Shown here: piece after piece, positions 18,388-41,002 of the stretch
Layout: the number at the start of each line of letters is the position of its first letter
How positions within the stretch are numbered: position 1 is the first letter of the stretch
Assembly: GCA_016281125.1 (NCBI GenBank)
Contig: JAEEIA010000073.1
Coordinates: forward strand, 1-50,683
Length of the DNA stretch: 50,683 nucleotides
From: Oscillospiraceae bacterium
GTDB taxonomy: Bacteria; Bacillota; Clostridia; Oscillospirales; Ruminococcaceae
Direction of reading: 5' to 3'
Notes under the pieces: model-generated
Told to the model about the DNA's origin: nothing
The model's database searches: none
What the model saw: only the letters and a program-made list of their open reading frames with translations
Program-made: the position numbers and the translations under genes

Positions 18388-18405
18388 TTTTCCCGGAATA
18401 AAGAA

Positions 18406-18438
18406 CATCCGCCGGATCTGAACAGGATCCGGCGGATG
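18406..18438. terminator. Bidirectional terminator
   Basis: 13-bp perfect stem CATCCGCCGGATC / GATCCGGCGGATG, 7-base loop, between the CotH gene and the convergent PurA-like gene. Confidence 0.8.
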
Positions 18439-18456
18439 CTTTGTTTATCACAGTTT

Positions 18457-19662
18457 TTACAGTGCTTCGGTGCGGACATCTGCCGCAAACGGGCTGGCGG
18501 AGAGATAAACCCGGCTGAATATGCCGGAGAGCGAGCCGCAGAAATCTTGGATAGGGACATTGCCGTCCTTGGTGACGATGCAGCTGTCCGTTTCATTGAG
18601 ATGCGTGAGAAACAGCGATACATTTGCAGAAAGCCCGGCCGATGCAAGATCAGCGGTGACTGCTTTGGCGAATTCTCCCGGATCGCCGTGCGCTGCCGTC
18701 CGCAGGATGCCCTGCCATTCATTAGGGATATTGGTGCGGTCCGTGTGGGCGAATGCACTGACTGCGTTCAGATTTTCATACGGCAGCGGCCCCGCGCCGT
18801 GCCTTGTGACATAGCTGCGCGTGACGTAAACAATCTCCGTTTCAGGCAGGTCATTGCCGTACAAGCTGCGCAGGATCCTTGCCGGTTCATACAGTCCGGT
18901 TCGTGACGTCGTCAGATGCGGCGCATATTCCGTATACAGCTCGTCCAGCAGCAGCCCCTGCGCGCCCTCGAACAGAATGTGCTCATAATGCAGCAGATGC
19001 GTCTGCTCCTTGATCTGAACGAATGCCGCATTCCGTGCCATCTGCTCTGCGGCATTCCGGAGCACGGTATCGCTTTGCAGCAGCTCACCGTATTCACCGG
19101 CACTGTGCAGGTCGATTTGCAGCGCCTTCAGACGAAGCGGGAGGTATTCTCTTTGCAGGAACCGCAGCTTCTGATACAGCGATTCTGCCTGCATTCCGGC
19201 AATCTCCCCGAGATGCAGCGGGTATGCCGCAGAGCGCACGACGGCTTCATTGATGCCCATGCCGCATGATCCGTGGCGGTTTTGGCCGCGGGATGTTTCC
19301 AGCAGCATATTCAGGAGAATGTCACCGATATAGGTGCAGCGGCAGTCCGGGGATGCGAAAATCTGCGGCACCGATCCGTTCAGGCTGCGAAACCGCGTGA
19401 TTTCGTCAGAGAGCTTATAGAGATCCGGCAGAAAGCTGTCCGCCCAATAGGTATCTGTCCCGCGGAACGATGCGGAGGACAGCTGCGAGAATACAAAGCG
19501 CTTTTCGGGAAAGTCAACAGTATGCCCGGCCTGTGCGCCGCCGTTGTGCCGCACGCAGATTGCCGGAACTCCCGCTCTGACGCTTTGCATTGCGAAATAA
19601 TCCGCGGCAAGCCCCTTTCCCTCATCGCCGAAATTCTTTCCGATGATGATTGTAACTGACAC
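18457..19662 (-). CDS. Divergent adenylosuccinate synthetase (PurA)-like enzyme
   Basis: 401 residues (PurA is ~430), GTG start six bases after the upstream stop, no clear ribosome site, so translation is probably coupled. Seen: P-loop-like GKNFGDEGKG with Asp13 in the position of the catalytic base, HNGGAQAGHTV with His47 in the position of the catalytic acid, FEGAQGLLLDE, and VTRHGAGPLPYE matching PurA's STRVGAGPFPTE. The Arg-rich loop that binds aspartate in PurA (TTGRRRRTGW) is replaced by TNIPNEWQGI, and the KLD and C-terminal GPDR guanine/IMP signatures are not kept (LTHLNETD; SPFAADVR). I infer a GTP-dependent ligase that phosphorylates an oxo group but joins something other than aspartate. 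Last gene of the vWA operon. Confidence 0.8.
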   Translation of the reverse strand: MSVTIIIGKNFGDEGKGLAADYFAMQSVRAGVPAICVRHNGGAQAGHTVDFPEKRFVFSQLSSASFRGTDTYWADSFLPDLYKLSDEITRFRSLNGSVPQIFASPDCRCTYIGDILLNMLLETSRGQNRHGSCGMGINEAVVRSAAYPLHLGEIAGMQAESLYQKLRFLQREYLPLRLKALQIDLHSAGEYGELLQSDTVLRNAAEQMARNAAFVQIKEQTHLLHYEHILFEGAQGLLLDELYTEYAPHLTTSRTGLYEPARILRSLYGNDLPETEIVYVTRSYVTRHGAGPLPYENLNAVSAFAHTDRTNIPNEWQGILRTAAHGDPGEFAKAVTADLASAGLSANVSLFLTHLNETDSCIVTKDGNVPIQDFCGSLSGIFSRVYLSASPFAADVRTEAL

Positions 19663-19668
19663 GGCTGA

Positions 19669-20547
19669 TTACAGAGAAATCGTTTCCAGCGCGGTAGCAA
19701 CAACGTCCTTGGCCTTGCCGCTCCACTGAGAAACGGCCTCCGCTTTTGTCATACCGCCTGTGACCTGCATCAGCGAAATCATGACCTCTGCCAGGAATTC
19801 GATATCCGCCGGTTCAATGACCGCATTGCGCCCGGGCAGCAGCGGTTCCCATGTTTTCAGAGAGGATGCGGTGTGGCTGCCTGTGATGATATGGAAAATC
19901 TCGTACTTCTGACCGGCCTCCGCCGCCAGCTCGCGCGTCTTGTAATCGGGGGCATTTTTGTCGCCGTAGGTACGCTCAATTTCGCTGCTGCGGAGAATTG
20001 CTTCCTTGCCGTCGTCCCCGATCTCGTCACCGATGCAGAACAGGAATCCCTTTTTGCCTCGCTTTTCAAAGCAGTCGGTCGAGGTGTGCTTCAACGCAAA
20101 ATACCAGACCAGCGCATCATAGCTGTACCGGTTGCCGCCCTGGAGGACGAAATCCAGCAGCTGCTCCACGACGCGGATATCTGCTTCAAACTGCGTGACC
20201 TGCATCGAGAGTCCGTGTCCGGGCGAGGTGAACGCCGCACACATGATATGCGGATCCGGAACCGGCCGCTTTTCCAGAATCATGGTTGCGGTTTTGTTGA
20301 GCGAGTTCTTTGCGATTTCGGCAGCGAGATAGCCCATCGAGCCGGTCGAATCAAAACCGATGATGATCGGCGTTGCGTTCGGGGAATCTGCGCTGTCCCT
20401 GGATTCGCGTACGGTAATGAACTGCGGCAGATATTTTTCCTGCGCGCCGTTGCCTTTGAAGATGTCACCGGCGGTGGACTGATCGCTGATGCCTCTGCTG
20501 TGCTTCAGACGGCTCCAGTCCGCTGCATTATAACTTCCGTGTCCCAT
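19669..20547 (-). CDS. vWA-like protein (second paralogue of the operon)
   Basis: 292 residues from ATG 20545-20547, preceded by GAGGAGG; the longer frame upstream runs into the previous gene. N-terminus MGHGSYNAADWSRL is shared with the preceding gene. From ~45: RESRDSADSP, then IIIGFDSTGSMGY, a von Willebrand A MIDAS motif of the form DxTxS (Asp66, Thr68, Ser70), followed by VPDPHIMCAAF, a Gly-containing loop (LQGGNRYSYDALVWYFALKH) and GKKGFLFCIGDE. No signal peptide, so cytosolic. vWA proteins act as metal-dependent binding platforms, often with ATPases or chaperones. This subfamily (RESRDS...STGSMGY) also occurs in giant phages and Bacteroides as far as I recall, without known function. 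Confidence 0.75.
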   Translation of the reverse strand: MGHGSYNAADWSRLKHSRGISDQSTAGDIFKGNGAQEKYLPQFITVRESRDSADSPNATPIIIGFDSTGSMGYLAAEIAKNSLNKTATMILEKRPVPDPHIMCAAFTSPGHGLSMQVTQFEADIRVVEQLLDFVLQGGNRYSYDALVWYFALKHTSTDCFEKRGKKGFLFCIGDEIGDDGKEAILRSSEIERTYGDKNAPDYKTRELAAEAGQKYEIFHIITGSHTASSLKTWEPLLPGRNAVIEPADIEFLAEVMISLMQVTGGMTKAEAVSQWSGKAKDVVATALETISL

Positions 20548-20560
20548 GTTGAAAACCTCC

Positions 20561-21463
20561 TCAGAATGAAATGATATTTTGATCGGCCATGCGGATGCAG
20601 GCGAGGGATGCCGCGGCGATTTCCGCAGCACTCTGGTCCACGCACCGCAGAGCTTCATTATGCGTTTTGCCCTCCGCAACGGAGATCAGCGAAAAGATCA
20701 GCTCCGCCAGGCAGGAGATATCCTTTTTACTGACTGCTGCAACCCGTCCGGGCATCAGATCGTTCCACGACGCAAAGATCCGGTCGTCGCCGGGCATGCC
20801 CTTGTCAATGCAGATGTGAAAAACGTGATATTTATCCTCGGCGGCTGCCAGCAGCTCCGCGTCAGACAGATCATACGGGACGCTGTCCCCGAATACGCGT
20901 TCTATTTCATTCCGGGTGAGCGTCTTGTGGCAGAGATCATCTCCGATTGTGATGAGATGCCCTTTCCGGTGTCTTTTTTCAAAGCAGTCTGTTTTGGTGC
21001 GGTTTGCGGCAAAATACCACGCGAGCTGATAGGATTCGCCGCCGTTCCCGCCGCCGCCGCCCTCCAGATACAGACCGGTCAGCTGTTTGATGATGCGGAT
21101 ATCGCTTTCACACTGCGTCACCTGAAACGGGACGCGGTCGCTTTTGCTGTCGCCGATTGCGCAGCAGAGTACCTGCGGGCAGGGGATCGGCTTGTTTTCG
21201 TACAGATACATAATGGCGCGGTTCAGCGCATGCATTGCGAGCTCCTCGGCCAGATAGCCCATGGACGCCGTGACGTCCAGCCCGATGATGACCGGTGTGG
21301 ACATTGGGGAATCCTCGCTGTCGCGTGCCTCCCGGAAGACGCCCCGCAAAGACGCTGCGGTCTGCGGTGCCTCCGCTCTGAAAATATCCGACGCTTTTTT
21401 CTGCGCTCCGAACGAGCTTCTCAGCTTGTTCCAGTCACTTGCCGTATAGCTTCCGTGTCCCAT
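20561..21463 (-). CDS. vWA-like protein (first paralogue of the operon)
   Basis: 300 residues, starting two bases after the zinc-ribbon gene ends. Same plan as its neighbour: MGHGSYTASDWNKL, REARDSEDSP, VIIGLDVTASMGY with the MIDAS residues Asp63, Thr65 and Ser67, IPCPQVLCCAIGDSKSD, a striking glycine loop (LEGGGGGNGGESYQLAWYFA) and GHLITIGDDLCH. The C-terminal ~80 residues (WNDLMPGRVAAV...AALACI-like helices) match the C-terminus of the partner gene. I infer a heterodimer or two-part platform built from a gene duplication. Cytosolic; no catalytic residues recognised. Confidence 0.75.
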   Translation of the reverse strand: MGHGSYTASDWNKLRSSFGAQKKASDIFRAEAPQTAASLRGVFREARDSEDSPMSTPVIIGLDVTASMGYLAEELAMHALNRAIMYLYENKPIPCPQVLCCAIGDSKSDRVPFQVTQCESDIRIIKQLTGLYLEGGGGGNGGESYQLAWYFAANRTKTDCFEKRHRKGHLITIGDDLCHKTLTRNEIERVFGDSVPYDLSDAELLAAAEDKYHVFHICIDKGMPGDDRIFASWNDLMPGRVAAVSKKDISCLAELIFSLISVAEGKTHNEALRCVDQSAAEIAAASLACIRMADQNIISF

Positions 21464-21465
21464 CG

Positions 21466-22434
21466 TTATGTTCCTTTTCCGTAGATCTGCGCATCGTCTG
21501 TGTCCATGGTGATGAACTTGCGCTCGCCGTAGGATCTGATCAGCGTGTCATCCCATTTCGCAAAATCGTCATACGCATTGCTTTCCGGTTCACTTTTCAG
21601 AAAATCTGCAAACGGCTTCGGGATATCGTCTGTTTCCTTTGCCGCCGCAGCGGAGGAGAAGCCCAGAACCTTTGCAGCAGTTTCACGCAGTGCATACAGA
21701 TTATCCCGCGTTGTGAGGATTCTGCCGTTTACGGTCGTGTGGTTCCGCACGGCGCTCCACCAGCCGCCGTAGAGGCTGGCCTGATGCTCATACGGATCAA
21801 TATACAGCGAATCAATGCCGAATTCCGGATGTACGATGCTGCTGTATTCCATGACGCAGCAGAGATTTTCCATCCGCCCGACCAGCCATGCGGTATGTCT
21901 GCCGCTGAGTTTGCCGAACAGCCGGAGCGGATATTCGTCCTCGCTCTTTTTGACTGCGAGCAGAACGCCGCCGTCCTTGAGGGCGAATCCGCCGCTGATT
22001 ACAGGGAAGAAGCGCGACAGATTTCTGGTATCGGCGGACGGATAATCGAGCAGGGAAACCGCTCTCCGGTATTTGTCCGAAAGCGCGGCCTGCGCTTCTT
22101 CAAAGCGGAAGATCACGGATTGTCTTGCAGCGTAAGCGGTCATGAGCGGAAGGCTGAACCGGTGCAGATGCGTGACATTGATCTGCTTGCCGTCCGCGCA
22201 GTCAAAGACCTCTCTGTCAGCCTGCGCCCAGAGCTCATCCGCGCGGCGCCGGCGCTCCTGCCCGTCGGCGGACAGGCTGAAAAAGCTCCGCATCCGTGCA
22301 TGGAATTCGCGGTAGTAGTCGGTGTCCCTGTGGTCGAGCACGTAGTCCGTTTTGCAGTACGGACAGTGCGCGGTCGTGCCGGACGGATCAATGACCATCG
22401 GGCCGCCGCAGTTCCTGCAATTCAGATTCTTCAT
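21466..22434 (-). CDS. Zinc-ribbon protein heading the vWA/PurA-like operon
   Basis: 322 residues, start preceded by GGGAGGA. The N-terminus carries a zinc ribbon, Cys6-x2-Cys9 and Cys24-x2-Cys27 (NCRNCGG...HCPYCKTDY). A charged helical stretch (about 35-130) is followed by an alpha/beta region with FPVISGGFALKDGGVLLAVKK and YGGWWSAVRNHTTVNGRILTTRDN. No known domain recognised after the ribbon. It is transcribed from its own promoter (22530-22558) and directly followed by the two vWA genes and the PurA-like gene, with gaps of 2, 13 and 6 bases. Such ribbons usually serve protein or nucleic acid binding; here it may be the scaffold of a complex (inference). Confidence 0.7.
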   Translation of the reverse strand: MKNLNCRNCGGPMVIDPSGTTAHCPYCKTDYVLDHRDTDYYREFHARMRSFFSLSADGQERRRRADELWAQADREVFDCADGKQINVTHLHRFSLPLMTAYAARQSVIFRFEEAQAALSDKYRRAVSLLDYPSADTRNLSRFFPVISGGFALKDGGVLLAVKKSEDEYPLRLFGKLSGRHTAWLVGRMENLCCVMEYSSIVHPEFGIDSLYIDPYEHQASLYGGWWSAVRNHTTVNGRILTTRDNLYALRETAAKVLGFSSAAAAKETDDIPKPFADFLKSEPESNAYDDFAKWDDTLIRSYGERKFITMDTDDAQIYGKGT

Positions 22435-22529: not shown

Positions 22530-22558
22530 ATTATACAGCATTTTTACCGAAATAGCAA
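22530..22558 (-). promoter_or_regulatory. Promoter of the zinc-ribbon/vWA/PurA-like operon
   Basis: Minus strand: TTGCTA (22553-22558), 17 bases, TATAAT (22530-22535), about 95 bases before the first start codon. Confidence 0.7.
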
Positions 22559-34131: not shown

Positions 34132-36837
34132 TCAAACGGGTTCAAATGCGATCCCGCTCTGCGCAGCGTAGGCTTCTGCTGCTGAACCGGGGGGTCCGCG
34201 CAGGACGAATCCCGCAATGCGTTTCATCTCCCCGTGTTCATAGGAAAAGCCGATTGCGTGCTTTGTGATTGAAACAACACCCGCGGGAACGGTGATGGAT
34301 TTGAGCGCGGTGCAGCCGTTGAATGCGCGTTCATAAATATACCTTGCGCTCTCCGGCAGCCTGATTTTCCGCAGACTTTTGCAGTTCCGGAACGAACCGG
34401 TGCTGATATGTTCCACACCCTCGGGAATGTTGACTTCCTGTAATTAGGTACAGCCTTCAAATAAACAGCGCGGAAGATTCCTGACGCTGTCCGGAATCGT
34501 GATCTTTGTCAGACTCCTGCAATTCCAGAACACATCCCCTCCAAGCCAGGTCATATTTTTGCCGAACTGCACATCGGTCAGACCGGTGCAGCTCCAGAAG
34601 CAGGCAAATTTCAGCTCTGTGATGCTGTCAGGGATTGACACTGACCGCAGCGCGGTGCAGTATTCAAACGCACACTCCCCGATCTCCGTCAATCCGTCCG
34701 GCAGTATGATTTCCGTGAGGCTGCTGCAATGATAAAAGCATTTTTCTCCGATCTTCTGCACTTTTGCCGGGAGTACGACGGTTTGGAGTGCGGTGCATCC
34801 GGAAAAGCAGGAATCGCTGAGCCCCTCAAGTTGATCCGGCAGCGAAACCTCCGTCAGCCGGGCGCAGCCGAGAAATGCTGCCTGACCGATCTGTTCCAGT
34901 TTGTTTGAAAACCGGACGGACAGCAGGTTTTCGCAGTTCCGGAACGCTTCCTTTCCGATGACCGTGATACTGTCGGGCATGGTAATGCCGGTCAGTGTCC
35001 GGCAGCCGGAAAAAGCGGAATCTGCGATGATACGGACGCCGTCCGGGACGGTCACATCACCCGCAGCCGTCAGCGACTGCATCAGCACGTCACCGACGAT
35101 GACAAGGCCGCTGCTGCTGCGCGGATGCATTTGCCACGGCGTATTCCGGAAGGACGATTCCGCCGTATTGATATTATGTGCCGGGAGCCTGATGTCCGCG
35201 AGCTTTGTGCAGTTTTCAAAGGCTTTTGTGTCGATGACGCGGATGCTTTCGGGAATAGATAGGGATTCCAGCGCGGCGCAGTCCGCAAACGCCGCATTCT
35301 CGATCTTCTGTAAGTGTTCCGGCAGGTGCAGGTCTGTCAGGCTTTCACATCCGCTGCACATTTTCCATGGAATGACAGTCACATCATCCGGCAGCCGGAG
35401 CGCGGCCAGACTGCTGCATAGATAAAACGCACATTTTTCGATGGCTGTCACCGCAGACGGGATCCTGATTTCAATCAGATGACTGCACTTATAAAACGCA
35501 CCTTCCCCGATGAACGTGACGCCGTCCGGCAGAATCACGCTTTCAATGCTGCTGTTCCGAAATGCATAAGCGCCGATTTTTGTGACGCCGTCGGGAATCC
35601 GGAGTTCGGTCAGCGCCTCACATCCGTCAAATAATCTGTCCGGTATGACGGCCAGATACTGCGGCAGGGTAACTGTTTTCAGATTCCTGCAATTCTGGAA
35701 TACGCTTTCTCCGATGCTTGTGACGGTTTCCGGTATCCGGATTTCGCTGACTGCACAGCATCCGGCAAAGGCGGTTTTCATGATTTGCGCGGTGTTCGGC
35801 GGAATCTGAATCTCCCGGATATTCTCACATCCCTCTAACATAAAGGCGTGTATAACGGTCACGCCGGACGGAATTGTGATTTCCTCCAGAGAACGGCAGT
35901 TCATGAATGCTGATGCGCCGATTTCCGTCACGCTCGCCGGGATGCGGATTGCTGTCAGGCTTTCGCAGCCGCGCAGGAAACCGGCCGGGATTTCTGTCAG
36001 ATGCTCCGGGAGGCGTATGTGATGCAGCGCCCGGCAATCCCGGAATACGCTTTTGCCAAGCTGTGTGACGGAATCCGGAACAGAGACTTCCGGCAGCATT
36101 TTGCAGTCCTGAAAGGCATTGCCGTCGATTTCCAGCAGACCGTCCGGCAGATGCAGCGCAGTCAGTGTTTTGCAATTCAGAAATGCCTCTGCACAGATCT
36201 TTTTCGTGCTGTTCGGCAATGCAATCTGCTGCAAGCTGAAACAGAACGCAAATGCGTTTTTTCCGATTCCGACGAGAGAATCCGGCAGCGTGACCTGTTT
36301 CAGCGATTTGCACCAGGAAAAAGTGGACGGCTGAACGGAAGTGATGCCCTCCGGAATTGTGATTTCCCGCAGGGATTCACACTCGTTGAAAGCAGCTTCC
36401 GCGATGAAGCGCATATGCTTCGGCATCTGGATTGTTTCAAGCTGTTTGCACCGACGGAACGCTCGCGCACCGATTATCTGTATGCCCTCCCCGAGGAAAG
36501 CGGTTCTGAGCGGACATCTGATAAAGGCATCGGATCCGATGCGCCTGACGCTGCCGGGAATCTGTATGCTGCGCAGTTCAAGGCATCTTGCAAATGCGCG
36601 GTCACCGATGTCGGTAACGCTGTCCGGAATGTTGATGTCCCGCAGTGCGATGCACGCTTCAAATGCACCTGCGCCGATCTGTTCCACCGTGTCCGGAATA
36701 TGGACGCTGACAAGCGTCAGGCATTTGGCAAAGGCGTCAGCTGCGATTGTCCGGATGCCGTACGGGATATCAATTTTTTCGGACTTTGTCAGGCATTTTT
36801 TCAGTGTGAAATGTTCGATTTCAAACAACTGCTCCAT
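34132..36837 (-). pseudogene. Cytosolic BspA-like leucine-rich-repeat protein interrupted by one in-frame stop
   Basis: The frame from ATG 36835-36837 runs 797 residues to TAA at 34444-34446, then continues in the same frame for another 103 codons to TGA-type end at 34132 (LQEVNIPEGV...GIAFEPV). Together it is ~36 LRR_5 repeats of ~23 residues (AFxxCxxLxxIxIPdsVtxIG). The stop falls at the usual Ser of a CTSLxEV repeat, one base from TCA. There is no signal peptide (MEQLFEIEHFTLKK), so unlike most BspA proteins this one is cytosolic, probably a protein-binding scaffold. The 797-residue product may still fold, since repeats are modular; a sequencing error is also possible. Own promoter at 36885-36913. 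Confidence 0.75.
34447..36768 (-). repeat. Array of ~23-codon leucine-rich repeats
   Basis: About 34 coding repeats of ~69 bases, diverged from each other, with conserved Cys, Leu, Ile-Pro and Ile-Gly positions. Confidence 0.8.
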
Positions 36838-40342: not shown

Positions 40343-41002
40343 TCAGATCTGAACAATCCTTGTATGAACTGGGAAGGCATCTTCTGCAATGACGGCACCT
40401 GCCGGAACCCCTGCTGACATCAATGCGGTGCAGCCGTGGAATGCGTGGGATTCGATGCTGCGGAGTGCGGCAGGAAAACGAATCGTATGCAGAGCGGTGC
40501 AGCCCCAGAAGGTGTCGGCCGCAACCGTCTGAACGCCATTCGGGATCGTGAACTCTGTCAGCGATTTACAGCTGGAAAATGCGCCCCTGCCGATCAGGGT
40601 GACCGTGTCCGGAATGCGTAATTTGATAAGCTGCCGGCACTCCGAAAACGCCTGTGCGCCGATTTTCGTGAGGCCGTCCGGCATAACGACGCTGCGCAGG
40701 TTACGGGCGGAGAGAAATGCGTTGCTGCCGATCTCTTTGATGCTGTCCGGCAGGATGACATAGCTGTTTTTGCCCTTATAGCGCACCAGCACACCGCGGT
40801 CAATCTCAAGATCGCTCAGGGGTGTGGTCGAAAAATCCTTTTTCGAGAAAGATGCGGTCTGCGGTACTGGTGTCGAATCGGCAAAAATAGCTTTAGAGTT
40901 GAAAAACGGTCTGCCGCAGACGGGACAGATCATCGCTTCCTGTGAGCGGTCAACGGTAATGACTGCGCCGCATAACGGGCAGAATGCGTGATTCAGGTTC
41001 AT
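40343..41002 (-). CDS. Zinc-ribbon protein with BspA-type leucine-rich repeats
   Basis: 219 residues. N-terminal zinc ribbon (CPLCG at 8-12 and CPVCG near 27-31), a linker, then about six LRR_5 repeats from ~85 (SYVILPDSIKEIGSNAF, LRSVVMPDGLTKIGAQAF, and so on). No signal peptide, so cytosolic, like the long LRR protein at 34132-36837. The ribbon resembles that of the vWA operon's first gene (Cys-x2-Cys, a short Asp-containing turn, Cys-Pro-x-Cys). I infer a protein-binding adaptor. Transcribed from a strong promoter at 41080-41108. Confidence 0.75.
   Translation of the reverse strand: MNLNHAFCPLCGAVITVDRSQEAMICPVCGRPFFNSKAIFADSTPVPQTASFSKKDFSTTPLSDLEIDRGVLVRYKGKNSYVILPDSIKEIGSNAFLSARNLRSVVMPDGLTKIGAQAFSECRQLIKLRIPDTVTLIGRGAFSSCKSLTEFTIPNGVQTVAADTFWGCTALHTIRFPAALRSIESHAFHGCTALMSAGVPAGAVIAEDAFPVHTRIVQI

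Follow-up and report, generated by a model that had tools for sequence, protein, structure and literature searches.

A conserved vWA and PurA-like gene module with exchangeable adaptors in bacteria, plasmids and phages

We analysed 50,683 nucleotides of DNA from an Oscillospiraceae bacterium (GenBank assembly GCA_016281125.1, contig JAEEIA010000073.1; hereafter, the window) and describe in it a minus-strand operon of four genes that encodes an adaptor protein, two von Willebrand factor A (vWA) paralogues and a relative of the adenylosuccinate synthetase PurA. A sequence-only reading of the same DNA had reported four open reading frames (ORFs) here, separated by 2, 13 and 6 bases, and had taken them to make one system. 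The frames and gaps are as it described, and the gene neighbourhood is conserved in bacteria, plasmids and phages, in line with a single system. In the order in which they are read, the genes are as follows.

21466..22434, minus strand: adaptor gene, predicted zinc-ribbon–pseudokinase; 322 amino acids (ORF and Foldseek kinase matches)
20561..21463, minus strand: gene for predicted vWA-fold protein A; 300 amino acids, the protein beginning MGHGSY
19669..20547, minus strand: gene for predicted vWA-fold protein B, a paralogue of A; 292 amino acids, the ATG at 20547 giving the MGHGSY start
18457..19662, minus strand: gene for the PurA-like enzyme; 401 amino acids, GTG start; not a standard adenylosuccinate synthetase

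The genes stay together across genomes. Eleven bacterial loci were compared first, and seven have the zinc-ribbon–pseudokinase, vWA, vWA and PurA-like genes in the same order; one of the remaining four is cut by the end of its contig and three are a single-vWA form with a J-domain adaptor (in one of these three, the called frame does not include the adaptor's N terminus). Searching viral sequences with one sequence gave no relative, whereas a profile did; from a profile scan of IMG/VR we took the best 80 of 324 confirmed loci and added four phage loci. The viral loci examined are the best-scoring ones, so that the counts describe the PurA-like/vWA family and not all phage PurA homologues. A PurA-like gene is present in 75 of the 80 vWA-anchored IMG/VR loci, or 79 of 84 with the four phage loci added, and 78 of these 79 genes are on the same strand as the vWA gene (flanks examined). 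Four of the five loci that have none end within about 0.7 kilobases (kb), and the fifth, L056, has 3.3 kb without a PurA-like gene. When the search was anchored on the PurA-like gene (best 80 of at least 527 confirmed loci), a vWA gene was present in 76 of 80 loci, and in 50 of the 54 on contigs new to the first set; no vWA was detected at L199 and L209, and L204 and L215 are on contigs cut short. The vWA gene adjoins the PurA-like gene, or lies no more than about 250 bases before it, in Vibrio and Rhizobium phages, in Bixzunavirus mycobacteriophages and in a human gut phage; at one locus, L130, a vWA gene stands without detected partners. We regard the conserved vWA and PurA-like module as firm.

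Relatives of the vWA proteins are present in 7 of 30 genomes of the genus, 6 of 297 of the family (10 of 396 in a larger draw, of which one, G453, has a weak match some 66 residues long) and 8 of 391 of the class, all counts including the window's own genome; a PHROG profile scan of 398 genomes of the phylum found the own genome only. Among 72,556 plasmid records 21 have a vWA relative, as do 206 of 50,697 phage records, 189 of the latter bearing the name of a Mycobacterium or Mycolicibacterium phage. A distribution of this kind is that of an accessory module which is exchanged. In a tree of the PurA-like proteins, the zinc-ribbon (15 rows), J-domain (4) and Met-rich (3) bacterial forms each make one clade, and each clade lies among phage sequences, with support of 86/84 to 97/83 at the nearest phages. 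Transfer from phage to bacterium is a likelihood under a weak rooting: long branches lead to the PurA outgroup and to the mycobacteriophage row, the bootstrap had yet to converge and the tree had no plasmid rows.

Both vWA proteins carry the MGHGSY start and the metal-ion-dependent adhesion site (MIDAS) motif that had been pointed out from sequence.

21263..21277, minus strand: MIDAS motif DVTAS, Asp63 to Ser67 of vWA A
20338..20352, minus strand: MIDAS motif DSTGS, Asp66 to Ser70 of vWA B

Across 117 aligned vWA relatives, Asp63 and Ser67 are each found in 117 and Thr65 in 116. Both proteins match PHROG 2971, a phage family of unknown function (1.1e-41 and 4.9e-24). vWA A is predicted to have a vWA fold. 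Its model (predicted local distance difference test (pLDDT) score of 89.5, predicted template modelling (pTM) score of 0.90) has 40 matches in the PDB at E ≤ 0.001, including vWA-containing chains of SpaC, integrin, TFIIH and Ku, with query template modelling (TM) scores of 0.34–0.49 to the listed vWA-containing chains. A start codon followed by Gly is near-invariant: it is found in all 117 aligned sequences (ATG in 113, TTG or GTG in 4), in 47 of the 49 complete sequences in a second set, which has a fiftieth that is cut, and in 11 of 11 of a third. Where a frame extended upstream, the start that fits the MG motif was chosen; in the first set, the codon before the Gly is always a start codon. 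Met is removed before an N-terminal Gly. In the model of vWA A the N-terminal tail is poorly ordered (residues 1–3 have pLDDT scores below 50 and residues 1–10 average 66), and a tail that is conserved and yet poorly ordered therefore points to a partner. The two paralogues proposed by the sequence-only reading are real; their doubling is a local feature, as phage versions of the module hold a single vWA protein.

In Mycobacterium phage Sauce (gp259; L021:6185-7972), an intein-like insert lies in the vWA gene near the metal-binding region, and models for Hint and intein splicing match one vWA member. In other C1 phages the alignment extends further into the gene, so that some seem to be intein-free, and one record annotates the intein-bearing C1 phage vWA gene as an HNH endonuclease.

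The product of the last gene is a PurA homologue. It matches the Pfam model Adenylsucc_synt (PF00709) at 6.7e-30, with 104.6 bits against a cut-off of 27, and falls well below the cut-offs of the NCBIfam PurA equivalog (86.8 against 402 bits) and of NCBIfam PurZ (32.2 against 300 bits). Its best match is PHROG 1211 (4.4e-43), which is named '2-aminooxy adenylosuccinate synthetase'. An ordinary, full-length PurA, which scores 510 bits with the Pfam PurA model compared with 104 bits for the operon's protein, is encoded on another contig of the same genome (3.9 Mb, 98 contigs); the case named as refuting by the sequence-only reading, in which the operon's gene would be the genome's only adenylosuccinate synthetase gene, does not apply. 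That reading had also noted that the protein keeps Asp13 and His47 and has lost the aspartate loop, and the alignment agrees. The residues that mark the family are listed below, with counts over 101 PurA-like sequences; rows of ordinary PurA and of the Escherichia coli enzyme were references and were not counted.

19612..19629, minus strand: GDEGKG nucleotide loop with the catalytic Asp13 and Lys16
19522..19524, minus strand: His47, equivalent to E. coli His41, the catalytic acid; 101/101
18799..18801, minus strand: His288, at the place of E. coli Val273, in the family signature TRHG; 101/101
18712..18714, minus strand: Gln317, at the place of E. coli Thr301 in the lost aspartate loop; 101/101

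His41 and Gln224 are found in all 101 sequences, and Asp13, Lys16 and Thr239 in 100 each; for Asp13 and Lys16 the exception is a row with a gap. Other positions have changed: Val273 to His and Thr301 to Gln in 101 of 101, Asn38 to Gln in 97 and Thr129 to Cys in 89; at E. coli Arg143 the alignment has gaps. The aspartate loop, ATTGRxR in E. coli, is replaced by a loop of the N-x-x-N-x-x-Q-G type, Thr at position 300 being found in none of the sequences and Arg at position 303 in three (the window has Ile). TRHG and QG were also found in nine of nine chromosomal or plasmid members from outside the sample. As an observation on the references, the ordinary PurA at L001 (G000:C80:39086-40342) has Leu aligned to Gln224 and Arg to Leu228, which is either an unusual clade or an alignment slip.

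PurZ and PurZ0, from phages with 2-aminoadenine DNA and the source of the PHROG 1211 name, are also phage-borne PurA relatives, but they show the reverse pattern. PurZ has Ser at the position of Asp13 in 147 of 147 phage sequences (PMC12884076) and keeps the tip of the aspartate loop, T273–T276 (PMC8342488), whereas the family described here has Asp13 and no aspartate loop. The same papers place Arg303 of PurA in contact with the ribose O2' and with aspartate, and a conserved Val of PurZ near the ribose C2' (PMC8342488, PMC12884076); this Val is taken to be the equivalent of Val273. Profile scores and residues set the enzyme apart from both PurA and PurZ. Phosphoryl transfer, one half of the PurA reaction, should survive, with a changed nucleophile and nucleotide fit, because Asp13, Lys16, His41 and Gln224 are kept and the aspartate loop is replaced. 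A rebuilt ligase is well supported by the sequences; the further departure from PurA itself is that these genes lie beside genes for a vWA protein and an adaptor.

Upstream of this pair lies the most variable part of the module. The first operon gene begins with the zinc ribbon that had been recognised from its four cysteines.

22315..22434, minus strand: zinc ribbon of the adaptor, residues 1–40, Cys6/9/24/27; domain-library match below curated cut-offs

Behind it is a feature absent from the sequence-only reading, a protein-kinase fold. The predicted structure of the adaptor (pLDDT 86.9, pTM 0.83) has 1347 Foldseek matches in the PDB at E ≤ 0.001, and the 50 listed are all protein kinases (for example, PknB and ASK1); among 36 adaptor relatives, two match Pfam Pkinase (best, 1.5e-9). 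The window protein has HPE at the place of HRD and GGW at the place of DFG, and so lacks the aspartates of an active kinase. GGW is the rule among the relatives: Asp at the DFG place is found in 1 of 36, a mycobacteriophage protein, and Asp at the HRD place in 6 of 36. On the predicted model, the adaptor is a zinc ribbon joined to a C-terminal degenerate protein-kinase fold, which we call a pseudokinase because the HRD and DFG aspartates are mostly missing across the 36 relatives. A DnaJ match at E ≤ 0.1 was found in 27 of 36 (best, 3.2e-8), with the J-domain preceding the pseudokinase in most.

The forms found upstream of the core are a J-domain–pseudokinase, a zinc-ribbon–pseudokinase, a Met-rich protein and a small coiled protein; bacteria carry the first three. 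In the flanks examined of the 84 vWA-anchored loci, 32 have the J-domain pseudokinase, 23 the Met-rich protein, none both and 29 neither, an exclusion with a hypergeometric probability of 1.4e-6 if relatedness is ignored. The 54 new contigs of the PurA-like-anchored set give the same picture (J-domain 12, Met-rich 27, both 0, neither 15). The small coiled protein, of about 120 residues, recurs in 10 loci, all without a J-domain or Met-rich adaptor. The simple zinc-ribbon recruiter of the sequence-only reading thus gives way to a zinc-ribbon–pseudokinase that is one of several interchangeable adaptors. Further observations on these proteins are that the Met-rich family is conserved (L020:6042-6755 and 22 other loci), that the coiled protein sits before the vWA gene (for example, L118:7645-7998, and nine other loci) and has GAFxxSLxRNNKxI in most cases, and that two Met-rich and two coiled proteins searched had no Pfam or PHROG match. 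A Variovorax plasmid (L303:4762-8332) has a zinc-ribbon adaptor in a betaproteobacterium, the kinase-like part of which weakly matches a Kdo kinase family; it is a second, distant zinc-ribbon form.

A neighbour recurs beside two of the adaptor forms. A gene for an NrtR-type Nudix protein adjoins the module in 14 of 14 testable chromosomal or plasmid loci with a J-domain or Met-rich adaptor, the gap being about 560 bases at most (taken from the annotated genes at L300 and L304). These loci are not independent, and eight of the 14—one further genus and seven J-type plasmid loci—were collected after the pattern had been noticed. The count excludes L029 (289 bases before the module, the genome's one NrtR gene being on another contig), L130 and L305; within it, both flanks of L006 are shorter than 1 kb and one flank of L129 measures 0.7 kb. 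Seven loci with such a neighbouring gene come from five genera of the bacterial family to which the window belongs; the Nudix gene is in the same operon in two, and in five of these genomes the sole NrtR winged-helix match adjoins the module. The J-type plasmid loci with the gene are from Alphaproteobacteria and Actinomycetota. Nine plasmid records were examined, drawn from lists of 21 and 55; seven have the Nudix gene, the others being L303 (zinc-ribbon type) and L305.

These neighbours resemble the NrtR repressors of NAD metabolism (PF21906; NF050029) in having a Nudix domain, mostly with a winged helix, and differ in that the gene lies outside the window's own operon. The NrtR winged-helix domain scores above the Pfam cut-off in 11 of the 14 loci (at L298, only the winged-helix part is in frame), and for four neighbours tested the nearest NCBIfam regulator is an ADP-ribose-responsive repressor, below the equivalog cut-off. 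Of 12 neighbours checked, 3 match the pattern of an intact Nudix catalytic box, and mostly broken boxes would be in keeping with sensors. Half-sites of GATAATAACA are common to four divergent promoters, and one of these, at a J-type locus, has a perfect 19-base palindrome that we read as lying over the −10 region. By eye, NrtR genes of the genus that lie away from the module have varied neighbours (five stretches). In the 84 phage loci, the recurrent neighbours include TROVE (7), DUF2828 (8) and RNA-ligase (6) genes, each neighbour cluster being named from one member. Two loci are recorded for their surroundings. In Vibrio phage phiKT1024 (L020:5026-12899), NADAR and TROVE genes flank the module, one on each side. 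In the Allorhizobium plasmid pAtS4e (L297:10378-16807), AAA ATPase, DUF5682 and DUF4132 genes that look like a second system follow the J-type module.

Transcription of the operon was examined through its signals.

22530..22558, minus strand: promoter-like site TTGCTA-17-TATAAT, weak evidence; ends 96 bases 5' of the first operon start
18404..18440, no strand assigned: strong bidirectional terminator-like hairpin that closes the operon

A single promoter, as had been claimed, is likely and is not shown: the operon region has seven promoter-like sites on both strands against 2.6 expected, and a second minus-strand site lies inside the operon at 20555-20527. The window's flanks hold, by eye, dockerin/CotH, transporter and metabolic genes. 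In two sister genomes the EamA gene of this flank is some 9 kb away from the module, so that no empty insertion site was defined. A prophage location was considered and set aside, as no phage genes were recognised by eye beside 11 other bacterial loci, where no systematic flank search was made. Elsewhere in the window, 34444-36837 and 40343-41002 encode, by eye, leucine-rich BspA-like repeat proteins, the second of which has a zinc-ribbon start that resembles the start of the operon's first gene.

We found no described system with this composition, although each domain is from a known superfamily. In the Ter/TerY-type, MoxR-vWA and vWA ternary conflict systems, too, a vWA protein of the cytosol is joined by partners that resemble kinases or are chaperones; the literature searched describes no PurA-like enzyme for any of them. 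TerD, TerC and TelA are not named in the annotated phage and plasmid stretches examined, where no Ter-specific search was made. A known defence system was rejected, as PADLOC gave no credible match (only Cas7d at E 0.013, for vWA B). The sequence-only reading knew of no pathway with this gene set, and likewise no paper joining a vWA protein, a PurA-like enzyme and the adaptor was found in the literature searched, which mostly did not cover subscription journals; a description elsewhere is possible.

Our preferred, and still tentative, reading is that this operon, with its zinc-ribbon adaptor, represents one form of a mobile module of phages, plasmids and bacteria that provides an altered-nucleophile ligase with a vWA partner, linked to nicotinamide adenine dinucleotide (NAD) stress. 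The fixed core would be a MIDAS vWA protein and the PurA-like ligase, with an exchangeable adaptor encoded just upstream. Given that Asp13, Lys16 and His41 are kept, the ligase would spend a nucleoside triphosphate and activate a purine-type nucleotide, which may then be passed to some nucleophile that is not free aspartate. The vWA protein might present the acceptor or be the acceptor, by means of its metal site and a flexible tail that begins with Gly. The adaptor would aim the core pair, the J-domain towards DnaK-type chaperones and the zinc ribbon and pseudokinase towards another partner. The likely use would be a response to NAD+ loss or the build-up of ADP-ribose, for phages in counter-defence or repair and for cells and plasmids as a stress or defence operon. 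We infer this chemistry, the role of the partner and the physiology from sequence. The observations of the sequence-only reading were confirmed, and its interpretation is partly supported, the conjectural part being a vWA platform that would present a target to a ligase.

A more specific version of the preferred reading, which we consider improbable, is that the vWA protein is itself the acceptor: its N-terminal Gly, freed by removal of Met, would enter the remodelled aspartate pocket and be joined to the activated purine nucleotide, giving a protein–nucleotide conjugate, a new post-translational modification made while NAD+ is consumed. It would fit because the near-invariant (M)G start lies on a conserved but poorly ordered tail and the partner has lost its aspartate loop.

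Several results weigh against the preferred reading. Searches of 21 vWA relatives gave no hit to a Pfam vWA model, and two near-identical phage vWA proteins begin MSSKGSW rather than MG. The NrtR-type gene adjoins none of 18 zinc-ribbon loci, the clade of the window, and the NAD link therefore reaches the window by homology only; it is also missing at L130 and L305, where no adaptor was detected. Most genomes of the genus have NrtR (26 of 30) and the loci are not independent, and therefore adjacency, not presence, is what counts. A locus on the Rhodovulum plasmid pRSMBA (L300:6001-7029) has an NrtR-type gene and no PurA-like gene; its vWA frame runs into a TonB-receptor-like end, which we note as a broken module beside an intact-looking NrtR-type gene. 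NAD-salvage neighbours are few in the phages (NAMPT in 8 of 84 loci, all Met-type; NadM-Nudix in 9 of 84, 7 of them Met-type), and the phages that have them are mutually related. In the enzyme, a plasmid relative (L299) reads GDEAKG in place of GDEGKG, and the window has THLN at the presumed guanine-recognition site, where E. coli PurA has TKLD. With this site altered, the PurA-like protein could be a sensor or scaffold.

That possibility leads to the first alternative, in which the protein is a non-catalytic, nucleotide-sensing switch and the module a regulated scaffold of pseudokinase, vWA and pseudo-ligase. We judge it unlikely. THLN would suit it, as would the missing Arg of the family's C-terminal GPxR consensus in the window enzyme and the degeneracy of the adaptor kinase itself (DFG and HRD aspartates in 1 and 6 of 36); but Asp13, Lys16, His41 and Gln224 are essentially invariant in 101 diverged sequences, a constancy not usually seen in an inactive enzyme. 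Slightly less likely again is a self-contained system for defence against phages or for conflict between genetic elements, as a relative of the vWA ternary systems of Kaur et al. 2020: the patchy occurrence in genus, family and class, the plasmid loci and the separate bacterial clades speak for it, whereas the module is carried by phages and hundreds of viral contigs, domain-library scans recognised no effector domain in the operon, PADLOC offered nothing credible and Kaur et al. (PMC7159879) has 'vwa' 134 times and 'adenylosuccinate' not once. We hold it improbable that the module is a chaperone device for phage particle assembly or proteostasis, pairing a J-domain with a vWA protein in the manner of MoxR-vWA pairs. 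The DnaJ matches of 27 of 36 adaptor relatives fit such a device, and one paper proposes a MoxR-vWA pair for jumbo-phage virion assembly (PMC7824862); yet there is no MoxR ATPase among the recurrent neighbours that were identified, the module is also found in bacterial chromosomes and plasmids beside a metabolic regulator, and the PurA active site would be left unexplained. A base-modification pathway like that of PurZ, suggested by the PHROG name, is very improbable and was rejected on two active-site features opposite to those of PurZ, the kept Asp13 and the lost aspartate loop.

A survey of phage PurA homologues has 481 sequences, 147 of them in the PurZ group (PMC12884076); the PurA-like family may account for many of those outside that group. 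What emerges is a conserved three-part device of phages, plasmids and gut bacteria that has been annotated piecemeal, as 'hypothetical', 'kinase' and 'adenylosuccinate synthetase'. Three or four small proteins would suffice to test it directly, and phages of the laboratory host Mycobacterium smegmatis that carry it are on record. The NrtR link, if true, would place the module in an NAD-centred contest between phage and host. If nucleotides are indeed joined to an acceptor other than aspartate, a textbook enzyme family would have been rebuilt as a conjugating or signalling ligase.

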